From Kutzneria buriramensis (GTDB taxonomy: Bacteria > Actinomycetota > Actinomycetes > Mycobacteriales > Pseudonocardiaceae): DNA of 64,000 nt. The stretch is from the NCBI RefSeq assembly GCF_003387475.1, contig NZ_QUNO01000006.1, positions 372,001 to 436,000 on the forward strand, given 5' to 3'. The notes under the pieces are model-generated. The model was not told where the DNA came from, ran no database searches, and saw only the letters and a list, made by a program, of their open reading frames with translations. This document shows positions 5,719 through 18,101 of the stretch, in pieces (position 1 is the first letter of the stretch; each line of letters starts with the position of its first letter). A program made the position numbers and the translations under genes.

Positions 5719-6288
5719 CTACAGGAAGTCCCGCCAGAACGGCACGGTTGCCACCGGCTGCCACCGCGGATCGCTCCGCTCCAGCCCCGGCCCGCCGAAC
5801 TCCTGATGGATGTAGTCGGACAGGTCGACGCCGTAGTAGATGATGTCCGTCTGGTACACCGACAACACCGGGTGTCCACACGATCCGCGCCCGGCGGGCA
5901 GGTACCGGTGCCCGTACACCGGCACCAACCGCGGTACCCCGGCGAGCCGAGAGCGGGCGATCGCCAGCCGCTCGTCCACCGTATGCGGCTGCGGCCCCCA
6001 CCCCTCGTCCCACATGACGTTGTGCTCCACATCGAAGAGCACCCCTTCGACCGGCCAGTCCAGCATCTGCCGCAGCACGGCCGGATCGCCGTCGCGCCAG
6101 TCGGGCCAGCCCCGCACGCGGTCGTCGTCAACGGGCAGGGCGGCGGCCAGGAACTCGCGGTGGTCGTCGGCGAACGTGAAGCCGTACATGTCCTCCACCG
6201 CAGCGAATTCCGCGTCGGTGAGGCCGGGCGCGAGCCGGCAGCAGTCCAGCGCGGCCAGCCGGGCCGCGGCATCCCTCAAACGGGGCAT
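5719..6288 (-). CDS. SMI1/KNR4 (SUKH) family protein
   Basis: A 189-residue protein with the SMI1/KNR4 pattern: an early LTDAEFAAVEDMYGFTFADDHREFLAAALPV segment, then GWPDWRDGD and a late beta-rich half with VYGHRYLP and SVYQTDIIYYGVDLSDYI. SUKH-superfamily proteins often act as immunity proteins against polymorphic toxins, and others are housekeeping. No toxin gene is next to it here, so an orphan immunity role is possible but unproven. It lies 24 bases from the right end of the mobile element and is transcribed towards it. The upstream spacer is shared with the divergent beta-glucosidase. Confidence 0.8.
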   Translation of the reverse strand: MPRLRDAAARLAALDCCRLAPGLTDAEFAAVEDMYGFTFADDHREFLAAALPVDDDRVRGWPDWRDGDPAVLRQMLDWPVEGVLFDVEHNVMWDEGWGPQPHTVDERLAIARSRLAGVPRLVPVYGHRYLPAGRGSCGHPVLSVYQTDIIYYGVDLSDYIHQEFGGPGLERSDPRWQPVATVPFWRDFL

Positions 6289-6354
6289 CCCGTCCTACCC
6301 TCCGACATCTTTATCGATCCGTAATCGTTGAGGCCGACAACATATGCCACCTTA

Positions 6355-6368
6355 TGAGAGCGCTTCCA
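6355..6368. promoter_or_regulatory. CebR/LacI-type operator upstream of beta-glucosidase
   Basis: TGAGAGCGCTTCCA matches 12 of 14 positions of the Streptomyces CebR box TGGGAGCGCTCCCA, with the central GAGCGCT intact. It lies 45 bases before the GTG of the family-3 beta-glucosidase, a plausible repressor position. CebR-type LacI regulators release such sites on cellobiose. No lacI-family gene is in the window. Confidence 0.55.
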
Positions 6369-6412
6369 GCCGCCACTGTGCGCGTGCCTCGTGTGCTCAG
6401 TGAGGAGATGCC

Positions 6413-9199
6413 GTGTCCGGACGTCGATGGCTGGGGTTAGCCGCAGCCGCGTGTCTTGCCGTCACCGCGTTGACCCCATCCGTCTCCGCCCAATCCCTGG
6501 CCCCGAACGCCACCTGCCCGTGGGTCGGGTCCACCGCCCCCGTGCCGCAGCGTGTGGCCCAGGTCCTGGCCCAGATGACCCTCGCCCAGAAGATCAGTCT
6601 GGTGCACGGCACCGGCGGCGGCTACGTCGGGAACACACCGGCCATCCCCGCGCTGTGCATCCCGGCCCTGGGCCTGGAGGACGGCCCGGCCGGCGTCGGC
6701 GAGAACCTCGGCGGCGTCACCCAGTTGCCCGCCCCGGTCGCCGCAGCGGCGACCTGGGACGTCGACGCCGAGACCCAGTACGGTCAGCTCGTCGGCAGTG
6801 AAGAGGCCGGCAAGGGGGCCAACGTCGACCTCGGCCCGACCGTGAACATCGTCCGCGACCCCAGATGGGGGCGGGCCTTCGAGTCGCTGTCGGAGGACCC
6901 GTACCTGGCCGGGCAGCTCGGCGCGGCCGAGATCCGCGGCGTGCAGGGCACCGGAGTGATGGCCCAGATCAAGCACCTGGGCGTCTACAACCAGGAGACG
7001 AACCGGAACTCGCCGTCGGACAACGCCGTCATCGACACCCGCACGCTCCAGGAGATCTACCTGCCGCAGTTCCAGGCCGGCACCCAGCAGGGCGCCGCGT
7101 CGTCGGCGATGTGCTCCTACAGCTACGTCAACGGCACCGACGCCTGCCAGAACCCGACCCTGCTCAACAACGCGCTGAAGACGGAGTTCGGCTTCCCCGG
7201 CTTCGTGACGTCGGACTGGGGCGGCACCCACTCCACCGCCGCGGCCGTGAACTCCGGCCTGGACCAGGAGATGCCCGGCGGCGACTTCCTCGGCGGCGCG
7301 CTCCAGACGGCCGTGCAGAACGGCCAGGTGTCGCAGGCGACGGTCGACAACATGGTGAGCCGGATCCTGACCGAGATGTTCACCTTCGGCCTGTTCGACA
7401 AGCCGCACACCGGCGGCACGGGCGTCACCGTCACGTCCACCGCGCACAAGACGGCCGCACGCCAGATCGCCGCCGAGGGCACGGTTCTCCTGCGTAACAA
7501 CAACAATGCCCTGCCGCTGAACACCTCGTCGGTGCACTCCATCGCGGTGATCGGCGCGGACGCCAGCACCTCGCCGCAGACCGTCGGCGGCGGCAGCGCC
7601 GCCGTCACCTCCTCCGGCACGGTCACGCCCCTGCAAGGCATCACCAGCCGCGCCGGCTCCGGCATCAGCGTCCAGTTCGCGGCCGGCAACACCTCCGGCA
7701 ACATCGGCCAGGCCGTCACGCTGGCGCAGAACTCGTCGGTGGCGATCGTGTTCGCCAACTACAACGAGTCCGAGGGCAGCGACATCGGCAGCATCGACCT
7801 GCCCGGCGTACAGAACCAGCTGATCACGCAGGTCGCGGCGGCCAACCCCAACACCATCGTCGTGCTCAACACCGGCTCCGCGGTGACGATGCCGTGGGTG
7901 AACAACGTCGCAGGCATCCTGGAGGCCTGGTACCCGGGGCAGGAGGACGGCAACGCCATCGCCTCGGTGCTGTTCGGCGACACCAACCCGTCCGGCAAGC
8001 TGCCGGTCAGCTTCCCCAAGAGTCTCAGCGACGTGCCGGCGCACACCCAGGCGCAGTGGCCCGGCAGCAACGGCAACGTGCAGTACTCGGAGGGTATCCA
8101 GGTCGGCTACCGCTGGTACCAGGCGCAGAACATCGCGCCGCAGTTCCCCTTCGGGTTCGGGCTCTCCTACACCTCCTTCGCCTTCAGCAACCTCCAGGTC
8201 GGCGCGCTCGACGCGCACGGCAAGGCGACGGTGACCGCCACCGTGACCAACACCGGCAGCCGCGCCGGCTCCGAGGTCGCGCAGCTCTACGTCGGCGACC
8301 CCGCCAGCACGGGCGAGCCGCCCTTGCAGCTCAAGGGATTCACGCGGGTGACACTGCAACCCGGCGCCAGCACGACCGTCAGCTTCCCGGTGACGCTGCA
8401 CGATCTGGCGTTCTGGAACAACAACGGGTGGACCACCGCCCTCGGCCCGTACCGGATCGCGGTCGGCGACACGTCCGCCAACCCGCAGCTGTCCGGCACG
8501 CTCACGGTCAGCAGCACCAACGCCGGCAACGCCGTCACCGTGACGAATCCGCAGGGCATGAGCAGCCCGGTGGGAACCGCCGTCAGCCTGCCCATCCAGG
8601 CCTCCGACTCGGCGTCCGGCCAGGCTCTGACGTTCACCGCCACCGGCCTGCCCGACGGGTTGTCCATCGCCGGCAACGGCACCATCTCCGGCACCGCGAC
8701 GACCGCCGGCACCTCCACCGTCACCGTCACGGCCACCGACGGCACCGGGGCATCCGGCACGACGACGTTCGTCTGGACGACCACCACCGGCAGCAGCGGG
8801 GGCGGCGGCCACACCGGCGCGATCGTCGCCGGCGTGTCGCCCAACCTCTGCGTGGACGTTCGTTCTGCCAACAACGCCAACGGAACTCCCGTGCAGATCT
8901 ACGCCTGCAACGGCACCGGCGCGCAGACCTGGACCGTCGGCACGGACGGCACTGTGCAGGCGCTGGGCAAGTGCATGGACGTCGCCAGCGCCGGCACCGC
9001 CAACGGCACCAAGATCCAGCTCTACGACTGCAACGGGACCGGCGCCCAGCAGTGGCAGGCGCAGGCCGACGGCTCGCTGGTGAACCCGAATTCCGGGCGC
9101 TGCCTGGACGATCCCTCGGCGTCCACCGCGAACAGCACGCAGTTGCAGATCTGGGACTGCAACGGTCAGGTGCAGCAGCGCTGGCAGCTGCCGTCCTGA
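6413..9199 (+). CDS. Secreted GH3 beta-glucosidase with Ig-like and ricin-B domains
   Basis: A 928-residue exported glycoside hydrolase of family 3. A signal peptide ends near Ala26 (PSVSA/QS). The GH3 N-terminal barrel covers about 35-300, with nucleophile Asp268 in FVTSDWGGTHS. The C-terminal alpha/beta domain runs to about 560 and contains ILEAWYPGQEDGNAIA. A fibronectin-III-like domain follows near 620-700, then a putative Ig domain near 705-790. The ricin-type beta-trefoil tail from about 800 has three QxW-like repeats (AQTWTV, AQQWQA, QQRWQL). The enzyme should release glucose from beta-glucosides outside the cell, with the lectin tail holding it on polysaccharide. The GTG start has AGGAG five bases upstream. 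The operator at 6355-6368 suggests cellobiose control. Xylosidase activity cannot be excluded. Confidence 0.93.
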   Translation: MSGRRWLGLAAAACLAVTALTPSVSAQSLAPNATCPWVGSTAPVPQRVAQVLAQMTLAQKISLVHGTGGGYVGNTPAIPALCIPALGLEDGPAGVGENLGGVTQLPAPVAAAATWDVDAETQYGQLVGSEEAGKGANVDLGPTVNIVRDPRWGRAFESLSEDPYLAGQLGAAEIRGVQGTGVMAQIKHLGVYNQETNRNSPSDNAVIDTRTLQEIYLPQFQAGTQQGAASSAMCSYSYVNGTDACQNPTLLNNALKTEFGFPGFVTSDWGGTHSTAAAVNSGLDQEMPGGDFLGGALQTAVQNGQVSQATVDNMVSRILTEMFTFGLFDKPHTGGTGVTVTSTAHKTAARQIAAEGTVLLRNNNNALPLNTSSVHSIAVIGADASTSPQTVGGGSAAVTSSGTVTPLQGITSRAGSGISVQFAAGNTSGNIGQAVTLAQNSSVAIVFANYNESEGSDIGSIDLPGVQNQLITQVAAANPNTIVVLNTGSAVTMPWVNNVAGILEAWYPGQEDGNAIASVLFGDTNPSGKLPVSFPKSLSDVPAHTQAQWPGSNGNVQYSEGIQVGYRWYQAQNIAPQFPFGFGLSYTSFAFSNLQVGALDAHGKATVTATVTNTGSRAGSEVAQLYVGDPASTGEPPLQLKGFTRVTLQPGASTTVSFPVTLHDLAFWNNNGWTTALGPYRIAVGDTSANPQLSGTLTVSSTNAGNAVTVTNPQGMSSPVGTAVSLPIQASDSASGQALTFTATGLPDGLSIAGNGTISGTATTAGTSTVTVTATDGTGASGTTTFVWTTTTGSSGGGGHTGAIVAGVSPNLCVDVRSANNANGTPVQIYACNGTGAQTWTVGTDGTVQALGKCMDVASAGTANGTKIQLYDCNGTGAQQWQAQADGSLVNPNSGRCLDDPSASTANSTQLQIWDCNGQVQQRWQLPS

Positions 9200-9208
9200 C
9201 GACAGGCC

Positions 9209-9242
9209 CCGGGCCGGCGGTCGAAGACGCCCGCCGGCCCGG
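9209..9242 (+). terminator. Hairpin terminator after beta-glucosidase
   Basis: The 12-bp arms CCGGGCCGGCGG and CCGCCGGCCCGG enclose a 10-base loop, starting nine bases after the stop codon. There is no U tract, as is common in high-GC actinomycetes. Confidence 0.6.
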
Positions 9243-9257
9243 CCCCCTGCCGCTACG

Positions 9258-9899
9258 GTGTCGTACGTGATCGAATCCGACTACCTCGACAGCACAAGGA
9301 CTTCGTACGACACCGCGGCGGCGTCCTACGCCGACATGCTCCGCGACGCGATCGACGCCATGCCGTTCGACCGGGCGATGCTCGGGGTGTTCGCGGAGCA
9401 CGTCGGCGACGGCCCGGTGGCCGATCTCGGCTGCGGCCCCGGCCGCATCGCGATCCACCTGCACAAGCTCGGCGTGGACGTGTTCGGCGTCGACCTGTCG
9501 CCGGGCATGATCGAAGTCGCCCGGCGGGACTACCCGCAGCTGCGGTTCGAGGTGGGATCCCTGCTGGACCTGGACATTCCCGACGGCAGCCTGGCCGGCG
9601 CGATGGCGTACTACTCGCTGGTGCACACGCCCGCCGCGCTGCTGCCGAAGGCGTTCGCGGAGTTCCACCGGGTGCTGCGACCGGGCGGTCATCTGTTGGT
9701 GGCGTTCAAGGCCGGTGAGCGACAGAACCACGTTTCCCATGCGTACGGCCATGATCTGTCGCTGGAGGTGTACTGGCATCCGACGGCGCTCATGAGCAGG
9801 CTGGCCGCCGAGGCCGGCCTCACCGAGGTGGCGATGCTGACCCGCGCGCCGAGCGGCACGGAGCTGGGGCCGCAGGGTTACCTGCTCGCCCGGAAGTGA
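9258..9899 (+). CDS. Class I SAM-dependent methyltransferase
   Basis: A 213-residue methyltransferase of the Methyltransf_11/25 type. Motif I VADLGCGPG (residues 54-62), the acidic strand end VFGVDLSPGMIEVAR and the late HRVLRPGGHLLVAFK are all present, so the AdoMet pocket looks intact. The substrate is unknown. It stands alone: a terminator hairpin lies just upstream and the next operon starts 70 bases later with its own likely promoter. The GTG start is chosen because the N-terminal helix before motif I then has the usual length. Confidence 0.88.
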   Translation: MSYVIESDYLDSTRTSYDTAAASYADMLRDAIDAMPFDRAMLGVFAEHVGDGPVADLGCGPGRIAIHLHKLGVDVFGVDLSPGMIEVARRDYPQLRFEVGSLLDLDIPDGSLAGAMAYYSLVHTPAALLPKAFAEFHRVLRPGGHLLVAFKAGERQNHVSHAYGHDLSLEVYWHPTALMSRLAAEAGLTEVAMLTRAPSGTELGPQGYLLARK

Positions 9900-9969: not shown

Positions 9970-11415
9970 GTGAGCATCGAAGCTGAACACCCATTCAGGC
10001 GATCTCCCGACGCTGATCCGTGGCGGGTCCGCCTGAGGGACCGCGACGGCAACATTCTGGGCGCCGGCATCGCCTTGGCCCCTGATGCCGTCCTCACCTG
10101 CGCTCACGTGATCACCCGGGCGGCCGGCTACACCGCCGGCGGCGACGTACCCGACGTCACCGTCACCGTGGAGTGGGTGGGGCAGCGGGACACGCCGTCC
10201 ACCAGCGCCCGCGTCGACGGCTGGGCCCCGACCCTGCCCGGCGGCGGCGCGGACATCGCGCTACTCAGGACCACGGAGCCGAGCGACCGGCCGGGCGCGG
10301 AGCTGCGCCGCCTGCGGTGCCCCCGCGACCGGCGGGTGCACGCGTTCGGTTTCCCGCCGCCCCACGACTTCGGCGTCTCCGCGTCGGCGACGCTGGCCGG
10401 CCGCGGCGGTCCGGAGGGCGAGTGGCTCCAGCTCGACCCGTCGGAGAACGGCGACCGCATCCGCAAGGGCTTCAGCGGCGCGGGCGTGGTCGACGACCGC
10501 ACCGGCGCCGTCGTCGGCATGGTGGTCACCACCTTCCAGGACAACGAGTCCCGGCTCGCCTGGGGCATCCCGGTCGACGTCCTCCAGCAGCACGTGCCGG
10601 CGATCGCCGAGTGGATCGGCCCCGACGTCCTGTGCGGCAACTGGGAGCCGGTCATCGGCGTGATCATCATCGTCTACGGGAACGTGGTGCAGGCGACCCA
10701 GGTCGTCGACGCCTCCGGCAGGTCGGCGGCGGAGCTGTCCCGGGTGATGAGCACCCCGCCGGCGACCGGGTCGGTCGGCTTCGCCGGGCTGGAGCACGCC
10801 GAGCACCCGGAGGAGGTGCTGGACGACGTCGTCGCGCCGCTGGTCCGGCGCGGCGCGACGGTGGTGCTCCAGTTCGCCGACGAGTCCTCGCCGTCGGCCC
10901 AGCTGGCCCGGCAGTGGCAGCGCAATGCCCTGCAGGACAGGGTGGACGCCTTCGGCGAGGGCGTCGCACAGCTCGCCGAGCAGGAGCTTCTCGCCGGCCG
11001 GCGCCGCCGGCGGATCCGGAACCGCTTCACGCCCCAGCCGCAACTGCCCGACCTGCCCGCGTTGGCCGCCGAGCTGGAGCTCCCGCTGGCCGTGCTGCGC
11101 TCCGGCGTCCGGGACCAGGACCCGGCCCGGCTGGCCCGCGCGCTGCGGAACTACGAGCGGCGGCTGGTCGCCGGCCTGAACGCGGTCAACCAGGCCAATG
11201 AGGAGAACGACGCCGCGGTGATGCTCCACGAGCGGCTGCGGGGTCTGCTGATCAGCTACAACGCCAAGACTGTGCAGCACGGGCTGATGGAGGACGAGCG
11301 GCTGTCCGAGCTGTTCCGGGACGCGCGGCTGGCGCTGGACGCCGACCCGTGCGATCTGGAAGCCGCCCGCCGTCTCGTCGAGGACTACGTCGCCGAGGCG
11401 CGGAGGCGGACATGA
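9970..11415 (+). CDS. Trypsin-like serine protease with helical C-terminal region
   Basis: A 481-residue protein with no signal peptide, so it is probably cytoplasmic. Residues 15-215 form a chymotrypsin-fold protease with an intact triad: His46 in LTCAHVI, Asp95 in GADIALL and Ser169 in GFSGAGVV. A spacer with the hydrophobic stretch VIGVIIIVYGNVV follows, then about 230 residues of charged helices (QEQELLAGRRRRRIRNRF and others) that I do not recognise. The helical region resembles, in general layout, the effector-associated modules attached to trypsin domains in predicted prokaryotic conflict systems. Its stop overlaps the kinase start by 4 bp, and it is the first gene of a six-gene operon. 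A TAAGGT box nine bases before the GTG start may be its -10. Proteolysis is likely to be the output or a regulatory step of the system. Confidence 0.82.
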   Translation: MSIEAEHPFRRSPDADPWRVRLRDRDGNILGAGIALAPDAVLTCAHVITRAAGYTAGGDVPDVTVTVEWVGQRDTPSTSARVDGWAPTLPGGGADIALLRTTEPSDRPGAELRRLRCPRDRRVHAFGFPPPHDFGVSASATLAGRGGPEGEWLQLDPSENGDRIRKGFSGAGVVDDRTGAVVGMVVTTFQDNESRLAWGIPVDVLQQHVPAIAEWIGPDVLCGNWEPVIGVIIIVYGNVVQATQVVDASGRSAAELSRVMSTPPATGSVGFAGLEHAEHPEEVLDDVVAPLVRRGATVVLQFADESSPSAQLARQWQRNALQDRVDAFGEGVAQLAEQELLAGRRRRRIRNRFTPQPQLPDLPALAAELELPLAVLRSGVRDQDPARLARALRNYERRLVAGLNAVNQANEENDAAVMLHERLRGLLISYNAKTVQHGLMEDERLSELFRDARLALDADPCDLEAARRLVEDYVAEARRRT

Positions 11416-13556
11416 CCGACACCATCTGCTGCGGGCAGCCGGTCAGTGCCACCGGTTTCTGCGACGTCTGCGGCACGCGGCGCCTCGCCCGGCAGCCGGC
11501 GGAGCCGAGCTCGGCCACCAGCTCGTGGGCCGGCGAGAACGTCTACTCGCTGCCGGAGATCGAGGCCCGCGAGCCGAGCCTGCTCACCGACCCCACCTAC
11601 CCGGAGCGCCGCCAGCACTGCGGCTCCTGCGGCCGGGCCGTGGGGCGCCGGATCGGCCGGCAGCCGCCGATCGTCGAGGGGTTCTGCCCACACTGCGCTA
11701 CGCCGTTCTCCTTCCTGCCCAAGCTGAACACCGACGACGTGGTGGCGGACCGCTACACCGTGCTCGGCTGGCTGGCCATCGGCGGCCTGGGCTGGCTGTA
11801 CCTGGCCCAGGACCGGCTCCTGCCGGACATGCGCGTGGTGCTCAAGGGCGTGCACAACCCCACCGACGAGCTGGCGCTGCGGCTGGCCCGCAAGGAGCGG
11901 GACACGCTGTCCCGGCTGGACCACCCGAACATCGTCCGGATCATCACCTACGTCGAGCACCCCAACCCGCGCACCGGCCGCCCCGACGAGTTCATCGTCA
12001 TGGAGTACGTGCCCGGGCAGTCGCTCCAGAACCTCCTGGACACCGGCGAGAAGCTGCGCCTGGAGGACGTCACCGCGTACGGCCGCTACATCCTGGCCGC
12101 GCTGGACCACCTGCACGGCGAGGGCCTGCTCTATTGCGACATGAAGCCGGACAACGTGATGCACACCGGCGGCCGGGTCAAGGTGATCGACCTGGGCGGC
12201 ACGCGTGCCGTCGGGGACCGGGACAGCGCCAAGGTCGGGACCCAGGGCTTCCAGGTCGACGACAAGGAGATCGCCGAGCGCGGCCTGACCGTGCGGTCCG
12301 ACGTGCACACCGTCGGCGTCACCCTGCGACACCTGTTCAAGGCGGCCCGAAAGCACGAGGAACAGCCCGACGACGTCGCGTTCGCGGTGCAGTCGATGGA
12401 GCTGGTGCTCGCCCGCGCGACCGCCCCGTACGAGCAGCGTTTCGCCTCGGCGACGGAGATGTCCGAGCAGCTCGACGGCGTGCACCGCGAGATCCTTTCG
12501 CTGCGCGACGACAAGCCGCGGCGGATGCCGGCGACTCGGTTCGCCATCACCCACCAGCGCTTGGACACCAGCCTCGGCACGGTCCCCGCGGTGGACCGGT
12601 GGACGCGGACCGAGAAGCCGGACGGGAGCATCGAGGACGGCCGCCCGTCCGCGCCGGTCGCCGCGGCCCGGCTGCCCGTGCCCCGGCCGGCGGAGTTCGA
12701 CCCGGCGGCCGAGTTCCTGGCGACGCGCTCGATCACCGCGCCGCGCCAGCTGCTGCGTGAGTACGAGAAGGCCCCCGCGGAGTCGGTCGAGCTCGATCTG
12801 GCTCGCGCCCGCGCGCACCTGGAGCTCGGCGAGCCCGCAGGGGCTCGGCGCTGCATCGACCGCGCCGCCGCCATGCTGGGCGAGTGGTCCGAGCATGACT
12901 GGCGGATCGCCTGGCACGACGGCCTGCACGCGCTGGCCTCGGACGACGTCGAGGCCGCGCTCGCGGCGTTCAAGCAGGTCTACGCCGACGTGCCCGGCGA
13001 GGTGGCGCCGAAGCTCGCCATCGGGTTCTGCCTTGAGCTGCAAGGGAAGTACGCCGACGCGCGCCGGCACTACGAGGTGGTGTGGAGCCGCGAGGAGCAG
13101 GCCAGTGCCGCATTCGGCCTGGCCCGCCTGTGCCTGCGGGCCGGCGACCGGGCCGAGGCCGTGCGGCACCTCGACAAGGTTCCTCGGGTGTCGCGGCACT
13201 ACGACGCGGCCCGGATCGCCGCCGTGCGGGTGTTGCTGGCCACGCTCGGCGACCGGCGGCCGAAGGCGTCCGACATCGACGAGGCGGCCCGGCGGCTCCC
13301 ACAGCTGTACCTCGACGGCGGCGAGCCGGACGGCGAGGGGCGGCAGCGGCTGATGGCCACGCTGCACGAGGTCGCGCTGGCCCACGTGCTCAGGACGAAG
13401 ACCCGGACGCTGTTCGGCGAGGTCGTCACGGAGAACCACCTGCGTGAACGGCTGGAGGCGTCCTTCCGCGTGCTGGCGGATCACGCCGCCGACGACGGGC
13501 AGCGGCACGTGCTGATCGATGTGGCGAACGAGTGGCGGCCGCGGACGAAGAGGTGA
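11412..13556 (+). CDS. PknG-type serine/threonine protein kinase (rubredoxin-kinase-TPR)
   Basis: A 714-residue homologue of mycobacterial PknG. An extra N-terminal zinc knuckle (CCGQP...CDVCG) precedes a rubredoxin-like domain with HCGSCGRAVGR and FCPHCATPFSFLP. The kinase domain at about 105-370 has the glycine loop AIGGLGWLYLAQD, the lysine of VVLKG, the catalytic loop YCDMKPDNV (no HRD Arg, as in PknG) and DLG in place of DFG. A TPR-like region fills about 440-714. In mycobacteria and corynebacteria PknG phosphorylates GarA/OdhI to control 2-oxoglutarate dehydrogenase. Here the neighbours differ, so the target may too. The ATG overlaps the protease stop, which fixes the start. No garA homologue lies in the window. 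Confidence 0.9.
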   Translation: MTDTICCGQPVSATGFCDVCGTRRLARQPAEPSSATSSWAGENVYSLPEIEAREPSLLTDPTYPERRQHCGSCGRAVGRRIGRQPPIVEGFCPHCATPFSFLPKLNTDDVVADRYTVLGWLAIGGLGWLYLAQDRLLPDMRVVLKGVHNPTDELALRLARKERDTLSRLDHPNIVRIITYVEHPNPRTGRPDEFIVMEYVPGQSLQNLLDTGEKLRLEDVTAYGRYILAALDHLHGEGLLYCDMKPDNVMHTGGRVKVIDLGGTRAVGDRDSAKVGTQGFQVDDKEIAERGLTVRSDVHTVGVTLRHLFKAARKHEEQPDDVAFAVQSMELVLARATAPYEQRFASATEMSEQLDGVHREILSLRDDKPRRMPATRFAITHQRLDTSLGTVPAVDRWTRTEKPDGSIEDGRPSAPVAAARLPVPRPAEFDPAAEFLATRSITAPRQLLREYEKAPAESVELDLARARAHLELGEPAGARRCIDRAAAMLGEWSEHDWRIAWHDGLHALASDDVEAALAAFKQVYADVPGEVAPKLAIGFCLELQGKYADARRHYEVVWSREEQASAAFGLARLCLRAGDRAEAVRHLDKVPRVSRHYDAARIAAVRVLLATLGDRRPKASDIDEAARRLPQLYLDGGEPDGEGRQRLMATLHEVALAHVLRTKTRTLFGEVVTENHLRERLEASFRVLADHAADDGQRHVLIDVANEWRPRTKR

Positions 13557-14944
13557 CGGTGACCAAGTTCTCCCTGGAGCTGAGCCAGAACAAGTACCTG
13601 TCCACTTCGGACCACCACATGCACGCCGTGCTGACCGTACGGGCCGAGGACCTCAGGGCGCGGCCGCGCCGGCCGGCCGCCGAGGTCCTCGTGGTGGACT
13701 GCTCGAGCTCGATGGACTGGCCGCCGACGAAGATCGCCAACGCCCGGCGGGCCGCCGCCGCGGCCATCGACGCGCTGCCCGACGGCACCTGGTTCGCGGT
13801 GGTGGAGGGGACCCACAAGGCCACGGTCCGGTTCCCGGACACGGGCACGCTGGTGCAGGCCGACGCCGACACCCGGGCCCGCGCGCACGCGGTGGCGGCG
13901 CGGCTGATCGCCAGCGGCGGCACCGCGATGAGCACCTGGCTGGCCAACGCCCGTGAGCTCCTCGACCAGCATCCGGACACCGTCCGGCACGCGCTGCTGC
14001 TCACCGACGGCCGCAACGAGAGCGAGACGATCGCCGAGTTGCAGCGGGTGCTCGATTCCTGCGCGGGCCGGTTCGTCTGCGACACCAGGGGAATCGGCGA
14101 CGACTGGGAGCCGGCGGAGTTGCGCCGCATCGCCGGGGCCCTGCGCGGGACCGCCGACGCGGTGCTGGACGACACCGACCTTCCCGCGGAGTTCCGCCGG
14201 ATCATCGAGTCCGTCACGGAGAAGACCGTGCCGGGCCTCGGGCTGCGGATCTACACGCCGGCATTCGCGCGGGTGGAGTTCCTGCGGCAGGTCGCGCCGA
14301 CGGAGATCGACCTGACCGACCGCGCCGAGGGTGGCGTGCTGGACGTCGCCACCGGCGCGTGGGGCGAAGAGGTTCGGGAGTACCACCTGTGCCTGGCGAT
14401 CGACCTGCACGGCCGTCCCCGCTACGAGGACGTGCAGCTGGGCCGGGTTGAGCTGGTGCCGCCGGACCATTCCGTCGAGGTTCCGGCCGCGCCTATGCCG
14501 ATCCGTGGGCACATCACCGAGGACGAGCGGCTGTCCACTCACATCGACGAGATGGTGGAGCGCTACACGGTGCAGGCCGACCTGGGCCGGCATCTGCGCG
14601 CCGGGTGGGCCCGGTTCGGCGAGGACGACACCGCTGGCGCCGCCGCTGAGTGGGCCAAGGCGGTGGAGCTGGCGCGGCGGCTCGGCAACGACGAGGTGCT
14701 GCGTCGCCTCGGCCGCCTGGTCGACATCGACCCGGACACCGGCGAGGTCGCCGTCAAGGACTCGATCCGTCCCCGTGATGGCTTTTCCGCGGTGCTGAGC
14801 TTCGCCAGCGACATGACCTCCAACCCGTCCGTGACACCAGCCGCCGGACCGCCACGCAAGTGCCCGAACTGCGGCAAACTTTCGCCGCCGGACGCCGTGG
14901 TCTGCATGACCTGTGGACATCGGCTGGGCGAGGTCGCGCCGTGA
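13553..14944 (+). CDS. vWA domain protein with C-terminal zinc ribbon
   Basis: A 463-residue soluble protein. A von Willebrand A domain (about 40-220) has an intact metal-dependent adhesion site: VVDCSSSMDW (DxSxS), the threonine of GGTAMSTW and the aspartate of LLTDGRNE. A central beta-rich domain follows. The last 35 residues form a zinc ribbon (KCPNCGKLS...VCMTCGHRL), echoing the zinc motifs at the kinase N-terminus. vWA proteins of this sort are interaction scaffolds. Here it would link kinase, protease and Trypco1 protein. I chose the GTG overlapping the kinase stop (GTGA). An in-frame GTG 21 bases earlier is the alternative. Confidence 0.85.
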   Translation: MTVTKFSLELSQNKYLSTSDHHMHAVLTVRAEDLRARPRRPAAEVLVVDCSSSMDWPPTKIANARRAAAAAIDALPDGTWFAVVEGTHKATVRFPDTGTLVQADADTRARAHAVAARLIASGGTAMSTWLANARELLDQHPDTVRHALLLTDGRNESETIAELQRVLDSCAGRFVCDTRGIGDDWEPAELRRIAGALRGTADAVLDDTDLPAEFRRIIESVTEKTVPGLGLRIYTPAFARVEFLRQVAPTEIDLTDRAEGGVLDVATGAWGEEVREYHLCLAIDLHGRPRYEDVQLGRVELVPPDHSVEVPAAPMPIRGHITEDERLSTHIDEMVERYTVQADLGRHLRAGWARFGEDDTAGAAAEWAKAVELARRLGNDEVLRRLGRLVDIDPDTGEVAVKDSIRPRDGFSAVLSFASDMTSNPSVTPAAGPPRKCPNCGKLSPPDAVVCMTCGHRLGEVAP

Positions 14945-16032
14945 CGGAGCGCGTCAGCACGACCCGCCGCACGCTGCTCCGTCTGCGGCTGGCGCTGCTC
15001 GCGTTGACGGTGGTCGTGTTGGCGATGTCGGCGTGGTCGTTCGCCGCCACCCAGGACGTGCTGAGCACCGTGCGGGACCGGACCGCGCCGGCCGTATTGG
15101 ACATCGCCTCCGCGCGGGCGGCGCTGATGCAGGCCCACGCCGCCGCCGTGAGCAGCTTCGTCAACGGCGGCGCGGGGCTGGTCGGCCCCGGCGAGCAGTA
15201 CGCGACCTCCCTGTCGGTGGCCGAGCAGGACCTGGCCCGGGCCGCCGAGGACAACTCCGCCGGCGCGGCCGCCAGCAACGAACTCCAACTGCTCGCCGGC
15301 CTGCTCACCACGTACAGCGGCTGGATGAGCCAGGCCGACTCGCACTACCGGGACAAGCCGGTCGACTCCCTCTACCTGAGCGACCTCTGGTACGCGGCGC
15401 GGGCGCTGGACGGCGGCGACCAGACCCTCGCCCACCTGGAGGTGCTCGCACAGGACCAGCAACAGGAACTGGACCAGGAGCTGACCGCCGACTGGCTCGA
15501 CCCGTCACTGGCGTTGGCCTGGCTGGTTCCGGCACTCGTCCTGCTGGCGCTGCTCGTCTACACGCAGGTCTACCTGCGGCGGCGCTTCCGGCGGCGGTAC
15601 AGCCCGTGGATGATCGGGGCCACGGTCGTGCTGCTGGCGCTGATGGGAGCCACCGCGACCGAGCTCATGCTGGCCGACCGGGCCCACAGCGCGAATGCCG
15701 CGCTGACCGCTTACGTCGACGGCACCGACCAGCAGTCCGACGCCGTCTCCGCCGGCGCGCAGCACCAGCTGATCCTGCTCATACGCCAGGTATGCGCTCC
15801 CAGCGGCAAGCCCGACGGCTGCGGCGACACCATGCCCGCCACCCCTCCGGCCGTCCCGCTGACCACGGCCGCTCCGCCCGCCACCTCCGCCGCATCGGCG
15901 ACCGCCCAGTTCGCCAGCGCCACCGACCTCGGCTGGTTGCTGGTGCTGATTCCCGTGCTGGCGCTGGCCGTCGCCGGGCTCGTGCTGGCCGGCCTGCAAC
16001 CCCGGATCGACGAGTACAGGAACCGCTCATGA
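14941..16032 (+). CDS. GlnX-like membrane sensor, four transmembrane helices
   Basis: A 363-residue membrane protein. The first helix is at about 13-36. An extracytoplasmic four-helix-type domain of about 150 residues follows. Two helices with a short basic loop (YLRRRFRRRYSPW) come next, then a smaller outside segment, and a last helix before a short tail (PRIDEYRNRS). This matches the topology of GlnX, the membrane protein that connects the GlnH lipoprotein to PknG in mycobacteria and corynebacteria. Together with the kinase upstream and binding lipoprotein downstream, both joined by 4-bp overlaps, this supports a GlnX-like relay role. Similarity of the outside domain to chemoreceptor four-helix bundles is only an impression. 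Confidence 0.72.
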   Translation: MTERVSTTRRTLLRLRLALLALTVVVLAMSAWSFAATQDVLSTVRDRTAPAVLDIASARAALMQAHAAAVSSFVNGGAGLVGPGEQYATSLSVAEQDLARAAEDNSAGAAASNELQLLAGLLTTYSGWMSQADSHYRDKPVDSLYLSDLWYAARALDGGDQTLAHLEVLAQDQQQELDQELTADWLDPSLALAWLVPALVLLALLVYTQVYLRRRFRRRYSPWMIGATVVLLALMGATATELMLADRAHSANAALTAYVDGTDQQSDAVSAGAQHQLILLIRQVCAPSGKPDGCGDTMPATPPAVPLTTAAPPATSAASATAQFASATDLGWLLVLIPVLALAVAGLVLAGLQPRIDEYRNRS

Positions 16033-17318
16033 GGCGACCGACGATCCTGCTGGCGGTGGCGGCGCTCGTCGCCGGCTCGCTCACCGCCTGCTCGGCCGCC
16101 GCCGCCGAGCTCACCGTCCTCGGGCCGTGGACCGGCGGCGAGGAGCAGGCGTTCCGGGCCATGTTCCACGGCTTCGAGACCGAGGAGAACGTCCACATCG
16201 ACTACACCGGAACGCCGGCGGTGAACGAGGTCCTCCAGGCCGACGTCCAAAAGGGACAGCCGCCGGACGTCGCGGTGCTGTCCAGCCCCGGCGAACTCGC
16301 CCGCTACGCCGCGTCCGGCGACCTGCGCAAGATCACCGGTTCGGTGGACGTCTCCGACGGTGAGTACAGCCAGCAGTGGCGGACACTGCTGAAGCTGGGC
16401 ACGAACGACCTGTACGCGGTGCCGGTGAAGGCGGACCTCAAGAGCATCGTATGGTTCGACCCCAAGGTGTCGTCCAAAATGGACAGTTGGCAGCAGCTGC
16501 TCGACTTCACCGCCAAGTCGGCGGCCGGCGGGCCGCGGACCTGGTGCCTGGGCATGGAGGCGTACTCCACCTCGGGTTGGCCCGGCACGGACTGGATCGA
16601 GGACATCCTGCTGCACCAGTCGGGACCGTCCGTCTACCAGGACTGGGCGACCGGCCAGCTGGCGTGGAACTCGGATCCGGTGCGCGCCGCATGGCAGACC
16701 TGGGGCCAACTGCTGGATGCGCAGGACAAACCCGGGGACCAGCAGGCCATGCGCAACGCCGCCCTGCTCACGTACTTCGGCGACGCCGGCGGGAAGATGT
16801 TCGACCAGCACCCGGGTTGCCTGCTCGAACACCAGGGCTCGTTCACCACCGGCACGTATCCGACGACGGCCGAGCGCGGCCGGGACTACGACTTCTTCCC
16901 GTTCCCGACGATCGCCTCGCAGGTCCCGCAGTCCTACGAGGTCTCGGTGAACCTGGCCGGGCTGTTCACCGACAATCCGTTGGCGCGCAAGCTGATGGCC
17001 TACCTGGCCGGCGCCCGCGCGCAGGGCGTCTGGCCGGCCCGTCCCGGCGGCACCGCGTTCTCGGTGAACCGCGAGGTGCTCAACGCCGGCGTCTACCGGG
17101 ATCCGGTGAGCACGCGCATCGCCGGCGTGCTGGCCCAGGCCGACCACCTCTGCCTCGATGCCTCGGACGTGATGCCGGCGGAGATGTCGGACGCCTTCTC
17201 GCGGGCGATCCTGGAGTATCTCGGCGATCCGGGGCGGCTCGACGCCATCCTGACCGGGCTCGACGACGTGCGGAGCGGGCTGAGCGCCAAGGGCCGATTG
17301 TCCGTGCCATGCGGCTGA
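16029..17318 (+). CDS. Extracellular solute-binding lipoprotein (family 1 type)
   Basis: A 429-residue lipoprotein. The signal peptide ends in a lipobox LTAC with Cys21 as the anchor. The mature part has the family 1 (sugar-type) solute-binding layout: TVLGPWTGGEEQAFRAMFHGFE, then QPPDVAVLSSPGELARYAASGDL, LYAVPVKADLKSIVWFD and a late AFSVNREVLN. No ABC permease or ATPase is nearby, so it probably acts as a receptor rather than in uptake. In classical PknG loci the binding protein is GlnH, an amino-acid (family 3) protein; the fold family here is different, which suggests another ligand. The ATG overlaps the stop of the membrane sensor. Confidence 0.85.
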   Translation: MRRPTILLAVAALVAGSLTACSAAAAELTVLGPWTGGEEQAFRAMFHGFETEENVHIDYTGTPAVNEVLQADVQKGQPPDVAVLSSPGELARYAASGDLRKITGSVDVSDGEYSQQWRTLLKLGTNDLYAVPVKADLKSIVWFDPKVSSKMDSWQQLLDFTAKSAAGGPRTWCLGMEAYSTSGWPGTDWIEDILLHQSGPSVYQDWATGQLAWNSDPVRAAWQTWGQLLDAQDKPGDQQAMRNAALLTYFGDAGGKMFDQHPGCLLEHQGSFTTGTYPTTAERGRDYDFFPFPTIASQVPQSYEVSVNLAGLFTDNPLARKLMAYLAGARAQGVWPARPGGTAFSVNREVLNAGVYRDPVSTRIAGVLAQADHLCLDASDVMPAEMSDAFSRAILEYLGDPGRLDAILTGLDDVRSGLSAKGRLSVPCG

Positions 17319-17332
17319 CAGGGGAGAGACAG

Positions 17333-17650
17333 ATGACCGAGCTGATGCGGATTCCGTTGGACGCCGGGGGATCGGTGCTCGTCGAGGCGGAGCCGGTGCC
17401 GGGCCTGGAACGCGCCGGCCGCACCGCCGACATGCTGCGCGACGCCTCGCAGTCGTTGGAGCAGGCCCTGGCTCAGGTGCGCGACGCCGCCGCGGCCGCG
17501 GTGACGCAGTTCGTCGAGATGCAGCGGCGGCCGGACGAGGTGGAGCTGAAGTTCGGGTTGAAACTCGACGCCCAGGCCGGTGCGGTGATCGCCCGCACCG
17601 GCCTCCAGGGGCACTTCGAGGTCAAGCTCAAGTGGACGCGCACCGAGTGA
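17333..17650 (+). CDS. Trypco1 domain protein (CU044_2847 family)
   Basis: A 105-residue protein that is one domain: an N-terminal beta hairpin (RIPLDAGGSVLVEAE), a helix with SLEQALAQVRDAAAAAVTQF, and a C-terminal sheet VELKFGLKLDAQAGAVIARTG...FEVKLKW. This is the pattern of the CU044_2847 or trypsin-co-occurring domain 1 family, named for its repeated association with trypsin-like proteases in predicted conflict systems. Here too it shares an operon with such a protease. GGGGAGAG five bases upstream is a good ribosome site. Its biochemical role is unknown; a regulatory subunit or inhibitor of the protease is the natural guess. Confidence 0.85.
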   Translation: MTELMRIPLDAGGSVLVEAEPVPGLERAGRTADMLRDASQSLEQALAQVRDAAAAAVTQFVEMQRRPDEVELKFGLKLDAQAGAVIARTGLQGHFEVKLKWTRTE

Positions 17651-17651
17651 G

Positions 17652-18101
17652 TCAGCGGCGCTTGGCCAGGATGTCCACGCCCAGCGCGGCGCGCACGGCG
17701 GCGTTGCGCAGGTACAGGCCGGCCCACACCAGGATCGCGACGTAGACGGGGAACAGCAGGGTGGAGAACAGCGGCGCCTCGATCCGCAGGTTGGAACAGA
17801 ACGCGCCGCCCAGGTAGGCGGTCTGGAGAATCGCGCCCAGCATCGCGGTCTTCGGGATCACGTACAGCACCAGGCAGCCCAGCTCCAGCAGGCCGATCAG
17901 CACGGCCAGGTGCACCGGGAAACCGGCCTGCTGGAAGGCCTGTTCGACAAAAACCGGGTGCAGCGTGTGCATCGTGGCGTCCATCAGCAGGAACAGCACG
18001 ACGGCGGTGCTGAGGCCACGGCCGATCTTGGTGGCCAGCGGGGCCTTCGCCTTGACGGCGGCGACGGCGGTGGTGTTGGCGGGGGTGGCGATCGCGGTCA
18101 T
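17652..18101 (-). CDS. DoxX-like membrane protein
   Basis: A 149-residue membrane protein with four hydrophobic helices (VVLFLLMDATMH, LAVLIGLLELGCLVLYVI, LGAILQTAYLGGA, PVYVAILVWAGLYL), the pattern of the DoxX-like (DoxX_2) family. Members are small inner-membrane proteins of mostly unknown function. The ATG at 18101 was preferred over a longer frame because GGAG lies upstream and the extra N-terminus is Arg-rich without conservation. It converges with the Trypco1 gene, one base apart. Confidence 0.82.
   Translation of the reverse strand: MTAIATPANTTAVAAVKAKAPLATKIGRGLSTAVVLFLLMDATMHTLHPVFVEQAFQQAGFPVHLAVLIGLLELGCLVLYVIPKTAMLGAILQTAYLGGAFCSNLRIEAPLFSTLLFPVYVAILVWAGLYLRNAAVRAALGVDILAKRR

Follow-up and report, generated by a model that had tools for sequence, protein, structure and literature searches.

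Work on PknG treats it as a switch of glutamate metabolism, and the accessible parts of two papers describe the route to it as running from GlnH through GlnX to the kinase (PMC6069109, PMC8546545). Trypco1, the trypsin-co-occurring domain 1, has been described within predicted conflict systems; no stated function for it was found in the accessible parts of the sources (PMC7159879, PMC10907252). The main text of the former, Kaur et al. 2020, contains no mention of PknG. In the stretch of DNA analysed here (64 kb of a 12 Mb genome, hereafter the window), six genes lie on the plus strand as a single block, 9970-17650:

9970..11415, + strand: serine protease, 481 aa, no evident signal peptide and presumably cytoplasmic; Trypsin_2 domain at about aa 17-215, putative decayed STAND NTPase without P-loop at about aa 228-306, helical C-terminal domain at aa 308-480
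11412..13556, + strand: PknG-type Ser/Thr kinase, 714 aa; N-terminal Cys pairs, rubredoxin-like domain, kinase, TPR domain
13553..14944, + strand: vWA protein, 463 aa; intact MIDAS, C-terminal zinc ribbon
14941..16032, + strand: GlnX-like membrane relay, 363 aa; four helices by a hydropathy script
16029..17318, + strand: orphan solute-binding lipoprotein of SBP_bac_1 type, 429 aa; lipobox LTAC, Cys21
17333..17650, + strand: Trypco1 protein, 105 aa; PF19493

The original prediction had named this six-gene set on one strand, with start-stop overlaps across the first five genes. Profile matches bear out the coordinates and families, and the overlaps that join protease, kinase, vWA, membrane relay and lipoprotein are 4 nt each; a gap of 14 nt separates the lipoprotein stop from the Trypco1 start. 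The trypsin-like protease, the vWA/zinc-ribbon protein and Trypco1 had been put forward as added parts of conflict type. All three families are matched, and the probable STAND ancestry of the protease strengthens that view. Judged by its sequences, the set appears to differ from the known nutrient-sensing version in having an added internal protease that resembles bacterial conflict machinery.

An alignment scan of a species-genome collection with the vWA protein returned 187 relatives, the nearest named ones being from Kutzneria (71 and 67% identical). The best 80 of the 187, a sample leaning towards close relatives, were analysed, with neighbourhood genes called from codon usage by a simple script and given labels from profiles of the window proteins; among these 80 loci, 7 are close to the end of a contig and one, L118, belongs to the PP2C/FHA type. 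Looking up to six genes away from the vWA gene in the 80, we found the kinase in 79, the protease or its C-terminal part in 77, the relay in 77 (7 fused), a binding protein in 77 (SBP_bac_1 in 71, SBP_bac_3 in 7, both in one locus) and Trypco1 in 37. At that distance the five genes other than Trypco1, with the C-terminal part alone also counted as protease, are together in 73 of the 80 and all six in 35, so that the neighbourhood search proposed alongside the original prediction finds the set not rarely together. With script-chosen starts, start/stop overlaps of 4 or 1 nt occur between vWA and relay in 77/84, relay and binding protein in 70/88, protease and kinase in 42/91, and kinase and vWA in 14/103.

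Across 150 genomes of the family, the kinase query has a match in every one among the matches listed, and the vWA query in 73 at E 0.001. Among the 40 kinase neighbourhoods retrieved from family genomes, protease-kinase-vWA-relay-binding protein is a recurrent gene order, whether Trypco1 is present or not. A hand count puts this operon type in no fewer than 30 of the 150 genomes, two of them (L034, L134) without the trypsin domain. Sixty of the 84 full vWA relatives in these genomes have a listed kinase no more than 4 kb away, and among 20 inspected from the remaining 24, PknG adjoins in 17 and is absent in three (L150, L151 and L153, the last at a contig end). The vWA protein is therefore a near-constant partner of PknG. 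L150 and L151, where no PknG was called near the vWA gene, come from one genus and have neighbour genes of equal lengths. A vWA relative at 1e-30 occurs in 9 of 246 genomes sampled across the phylum, own genome included; the wider vWA family is thus uncommon, and part of it is of another type. The six genes form a unit, and the recurrence of the block in many genera is more than chance.

One Kutzneria genome, G109, is without the operon between matching flanks. Its GH3 glycosidase and acyl-CoA dehydrogenase-like genes lie about 2 kb apart, versus about 9 kb where the operon is present. In the alignment, window 5721 to 9897 is matched, a 46-nt match follows at 9998-10043 near the protease start, and the match resumes at 17654, directly after the Trypco1 stop; versus L014, resumption falls inside the Trypco1 end. 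The six genes are missing from G109 as one block, probably through deletion. Among the loci compared the flanking genes match only Kutzneria loci, and the module therefore sits in other surroundings elsewhere; the flanks recur within Kutzneria and, judged by gene lengths, in part of Amycolatopsis too. A functional link to the upstream GH3 glycosidase (6413-9199), suggested by the sugar-type sensor, was dropped because, among called genes, GH3 is matched in Kutzneria loci alone. Immediately before the operon lies a methyltransferase-like gene (9258-9899), part of which matches the PADLOC mad2 model (8.4e-18); it is probably an ordinary SAM methyltransferase.

The kinase exceeds the curated cut-offs of PknG_TPR (223.9 bits, cut-off 27; 3.1e-66), PknG_rubred (54.2, cut-off 28.5; 1.5e-14) and Pkinase (89.4, cut-off 31.7; 3.3e-25), and its closest solved relative is M. 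tuberculosis PknG (1.3e-103). The catalytic residues Lys145, Asp243 and Asp260 are kept in 102/102 kinases; residue counts draw on 103 loci, where some genomes appear two times and 89 kinase ends are distinct, and they leave out proteins that are shorter or fused. We placed 78 kinases in an unrooted tree built by a quick method with SH-aLRT support only. A branch of 100% SH-aLRT splits 52 of the 78, including the operon's, from 9 canonical PknG, and across the same branch lie 14 PP2C/FHA-type kinases and 3 with vWA but without PP2C. On the evidence of this tree, the operon kinase type is separate from canonical PknG; because the tree is unrooted, it yields no age order of the operon types. The 52-kinase side comprises 41 loci where trypsin was called, 6 where the C-terminal part alone was (six-frame translation recovered trypsin in two of them), 1 with no call and 4 three-gene loci, which nest inside the lineage as two separate groups. 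These four (L037, L040, L046, L051) hold PknG, a GlnX-like relay and SBP_bac_1, with protease and vWA both missing, so the sensor-kinase part can exist alone. The separate PknG lineage is likely to be the control unit of the protease and vWA protein, and its solute sensor is of another type. The idea of a Ser/Thr-rich kinase N-terminus was dropped, with only 8 kinases measurable. The kinase of L056 (JOAA01000023.1) groups beside Kibdelosporangium in the tree.

The window's genome has two more PknG operons, L009 (G000:C6:82000-99000) and L010 (G000:C9:1-16000), as well as a canonical GlnX-GlnH-PknG locus. L009 and L010 contain a helical protein, PknG, PP2C, vWA, a zinc-ribbon/FHA protein and GlnX, with SBP_bac_3 additionally in L010, and the FHA protein may be those operons' own PknG substrate. 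Similar operons occur in the family (L137-L140, L144-L149 and L152).

The protease had been described as trypsin-like, and its Trypsin_2 match (3.5e-11) upholds this, but that description omitted the middle domain and the helical C-terminal domain. Its triad is His46, Asp95 and Ser169. The serine named in the original prediction, Ser169, is that of the GFSG motif and is kept in 96 of the 97 aligned proteases, some genomes counting twice; Asp is kept in 95 and His in 89, with 7 of the 8 missing His being gaps. In the predicted model the trypsin domain is joined by a small alpha/beta domain and by long helices; its pTM of 0.58 does not fix the domain arrangement. A Foldseek search with the model listed, among the best 50, the trypsin-fold proteases MucD, DegP, HtrA, Esp, thrombin and elastase; these matches held no information on the middle domain.

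A tight profile of the middle domain, A4, was run against 31 genomes. Beyond the operon proteases it matched six long proteins with intact P-loop (2.1e-15 to 3.6e-7), and a seventh, L186, at 1.9e-4. Profile-profile comparison of the middle domain with the STAND matches gave E 1e-20, a value that is not independent because these STAND proteins were chosen by the A4 search, and it aligned the P-loop to the stretch that lost it. Walker A is found in 0/85 proteases. Pfam gave no STAND or NACHT match in 21 proteases scanned. Three of the six STAND matches were also run against Pfam (L182, L180, L179): AAA_16 is above cut-off in L182 only, nSTAND1 is just below cut-off in all three, and a caspase-like (CHAT) match in L179 is also below it. 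L182, from another Kutzneria, has Trypsin_2, AAA_16 and WD40 parts. On these comparisons, we read the protease middle domain as a decayed STAND NTPase without P-loop. A looser profile, of the middle domain and its flanks, was set aside, as it matched nothing convincing except the protease (best other match 0.07).

The helical end recurs in the gene upstream of PknG in both paralogous PP2C/FHA operons of the window's genome. In four loci the protein upstream of PknG is without trypsin and has another N-terminus instead:

L066, 4556-5620: GNVVQA-type motif
L134, 11755-12756: GNVVQA-type motif
L093, 4595-5686: cyclase-like stretch, by eye
L034, 10058-11200: unassigned part

Proteolysis is therefore not the sole possible output. 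Under a strict pattern the GNVVQA motif occurs in L066 and L134 alone among called proteins, and presumably it resembles bacterial amyloid signalling motifs. Pfam gave no confirmation of the cyclase-like impression in L093.

The vWA protein matches VWA_3 at 2.7e-13. Its MIDAS residues are D49, S51, S53, T124 and D152, and the MIDAS is kept in 102/102; the C-terminal zinc ribbon is below cut-off (21.2 of 27 bits). The relay matches the GlnX model NF058618 at 8.4e-27 and is therefore homologous to GlnX, though its 94.3 bits are below the curated cut-off of 250, which the GlnX proteins of L008, L009, L010 and L029 exceed. Relay and binding protein are fused in seven Streptomyces loci (L072, L077, L080, L087, L090, L091, L108), in a polypeptide of 730-793 aa with the relay first and five helices by hydropathy. 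The fusions thus tie the two proteins together and are consistent with a binding domain outside. The binding protein matches SBP_bac_1 (5.2e-19) and does not match SBP_bac_3, the amino-acid type to which GlnH belongs. The original prediction, that kinase, membrane protein and lipoprotein mirror GlnH-GlnX-PknG, consequently stands for the likeness of the input but not for the binding protein, which is not of the GlnH type. A Cys occupies the lipobox Cys21 column in 64 of 87 aligned relatives. The predicted model of the binding protein (mean pLDDT 84, pTM 0.85) is closest to the glucose/galactose-binding 2b3b, ppGBP and AcbH (TM 0.73-0.80 by target length, 14-18% identity), and on this model a sugar-like ligand is likely. 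The sensor is exchangeable, since in seven distinct loci (L029, which equals L089, L032, L115, L117, L120, L128 and L133) a GlnX-SBP_bac_3 pair stands at protease-PknG-vWA instead.

The last gene matches Trypco1 at 5.2e-28, and its 98 bits pass the PF19493 gathering score of 24.6. Trypco1 is present in 48 of 89 distinct trypsin loci (missing in 41) versus 0 of 9 loci without trypsin, two of these nine being at contig ends and three from the other kinase lineage. The six-gene operon thereby offers a defined setting for Trypco1, a named partner of bacterial trypsins. Elsewhere in the window's own genome (L011, 6419-11109), a Trypco1 gene adjoins a 1416-aa trypsin-nSTAND1-WD40-like protein.

We consider it somewhat probable that the operon is a transmembrane relay coupling an outside solute to an internal protease, a PknG module with a trypsin-STAND protease end. 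The lipoprotein would bind a small outside solute, probably sugar-like to judge from its fold, and would then contact the periplasmic part of the GlnX-like relay, a step that the gene fusions support. By analogy with the canonical system, the relay would alter the activity of the PknG-like kinase via its TPR domain. Kinase and vWA/zinc-ribbon protein might hold or modify the protease via its decayed STAND and helical domains, with phosphorylation and vWA binding substituting for the lost ATP switch. The original prediction had a vWA scaffold gating the protease, as a nutrient checkpoint or a suicide-type defence; both the gating and the purpose are conjectural. The freed protease would cut cytoplasmic targets, and Trypco1 could be a trypsin-specific helper or restraint. 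From the sequences, we infer that a PknG sensory module acquired its protease from the corresponding end of a trypsin-STAND conflict protein. That the kinase also took over the switching of the lost NTPase, so that an outside chemical cue would determine whether restraint or proteolysis or death follows, is a tentative extension, about which we are rather doubtful.

One alternative is a second metabolic PknG pathway, in which an FHA protein like GarA/OdhI, encoded elsewhere, is phosphorylated in response to sugar and the protease and vWA protein only tune the kinase. The kinase has a PknG-like domain make-up (rubredoxin and TPR), the PknG-relay-SBP_bac_1 loci without protease nest within its lineage, and related operons have an FHA protein and a PP2C phosphatase. 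However, FHA and PP2C genes are absent from the six-gene operon, the genome already has the canonical locus and the two PP2C/FHA operons, and a strongly supported branch separates the operon kinase from the kinases of those loci; we find this pathway fairly unlikely. The protease's STAND ancestry (one of the matches is a trypsin-STAND-WD40 protein), the alternative N-terminal parts in four loci, the patchy presence and the whole-operon loss in Kutzneria G109 would suit defence by suicide, where infection or lysis products alter the outside signal or the membrane, the kinase frees the protease and the cell dies. The placing of Trypco1 in predicted conflict systems points the same way, within the accessible parts of the sources (PMC7159879, PMC10907252). 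The kinase domain matches PADLOC kinase models too (best PD-T4-6, 4.1e-32), but it matches many kinase families at once, and PADLOC is without a match for the vWA protein, relay, lipoprotein and Trypco1. In PADLOC the gene set matches no described system, and the best protease match is weak (RT-Protease_XI, 8e-4). Phage sensing does not usually rely on solute binding as its input, and the flanks that recur in Kutzneria and, by gene lengths, partly in Amycolatopsis indicate a stable genomic place; we regard suicide defence as improbable.

It is very unlikely that sensor-kinase genes and protease-vWA genes merely share an operon and work separately. The sensor pair is exchangeable and four loci hold the sensor-kinase part alone, as such loose neighbours might; yet in the seven loci with GlnX and SBP_bac_3 it is another GlnX-binding protein pair that adjoins the core, and the kinase gene remains with the vWA gene. 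An SBP_bac_1 protein is ordinarily part of an importer, and the lipoprotein might serve an ABC importer whose uptake the remaining genes regulate. With permease and transport ATPase absent from the six genes, and the binding protein fused to the relay in seven loci, we give this hardly any credence. The tentative extension in which the kinase does the switching of the lost NTPase would, if true, amount to a proteolytic switch in bacteria that is licensed by a kinase and gated by a receptor, a kind that we did not find described in the literature searched. A protease with a lost NTPase switch also affords a concrete hypothesis, that the trigger changed from ATP binding to phosphorylation.

The TerY-P triad consists of vWA, PP2C and kinase. 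The operon shares the vWA and kinase pair with it but has no PP2C among its six genes, and its kinase is PknG-type. Also comparable are the PknG-PP2C-vWA-FHA operons (L009, L010, L052, L137-L140, L144-L149, L152), most with GlnX and SBP_bac_3, for which no description was found in the open-licence literature. They have in common with the operon the kinase, the vWA protein and, except in L148 where none was labelled, a kinase-adjoining helical protein homologous to the protease C-terminus; unlike it, they have their own PP2C and FHA genes and neither trypsin domain nor Trypco1. As for the claim that the conserved operon is undescribed, we found no paper on the identical six-gene set in the open-licence literature, and because the search covered open-licence papers only, a description elsewhere is possible. 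In that literature a single paper, PMC1262709, contains both PknG and vWA.

Within the accessible parts of PMC7159879, the MoxR-vWA (VMAP, iSTAND) ternary systems and the kinase-PP2C-vWA theme resemble the operon in combining vWA, peptidase and Trypco1 with an inactive STAND; no MoxR AAA+ or VMAP is among the six genes, which have PknG and a solute sensor instead. The trypsin-STAND conflict proteins (L182, L011; Kaur et al. 2020, PMC7159879, as far as its accessible parts go) likewise place trypsin before STAND, with a Trypco1 neighbour in L011, whereas here the P-loop is lost, WD40 is absent, and a kinase and vWA protein are in the operon. The GlnH-GlnX-PknG operon, as described in the accessible parts of PMC6069109 and PMC8546545, has the same rubredoxin/TPR PknG kinase, GlnX-like membrane protein and orphan binding lipoprotein in a single operon. 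In contrast to it, the locus described here has SBP_bac_1 rather than SBP_bac_3, a relay below the GlnX score and a kinase of separate lineage, and to these it adds a protease, a vWA protein and Trypco1.
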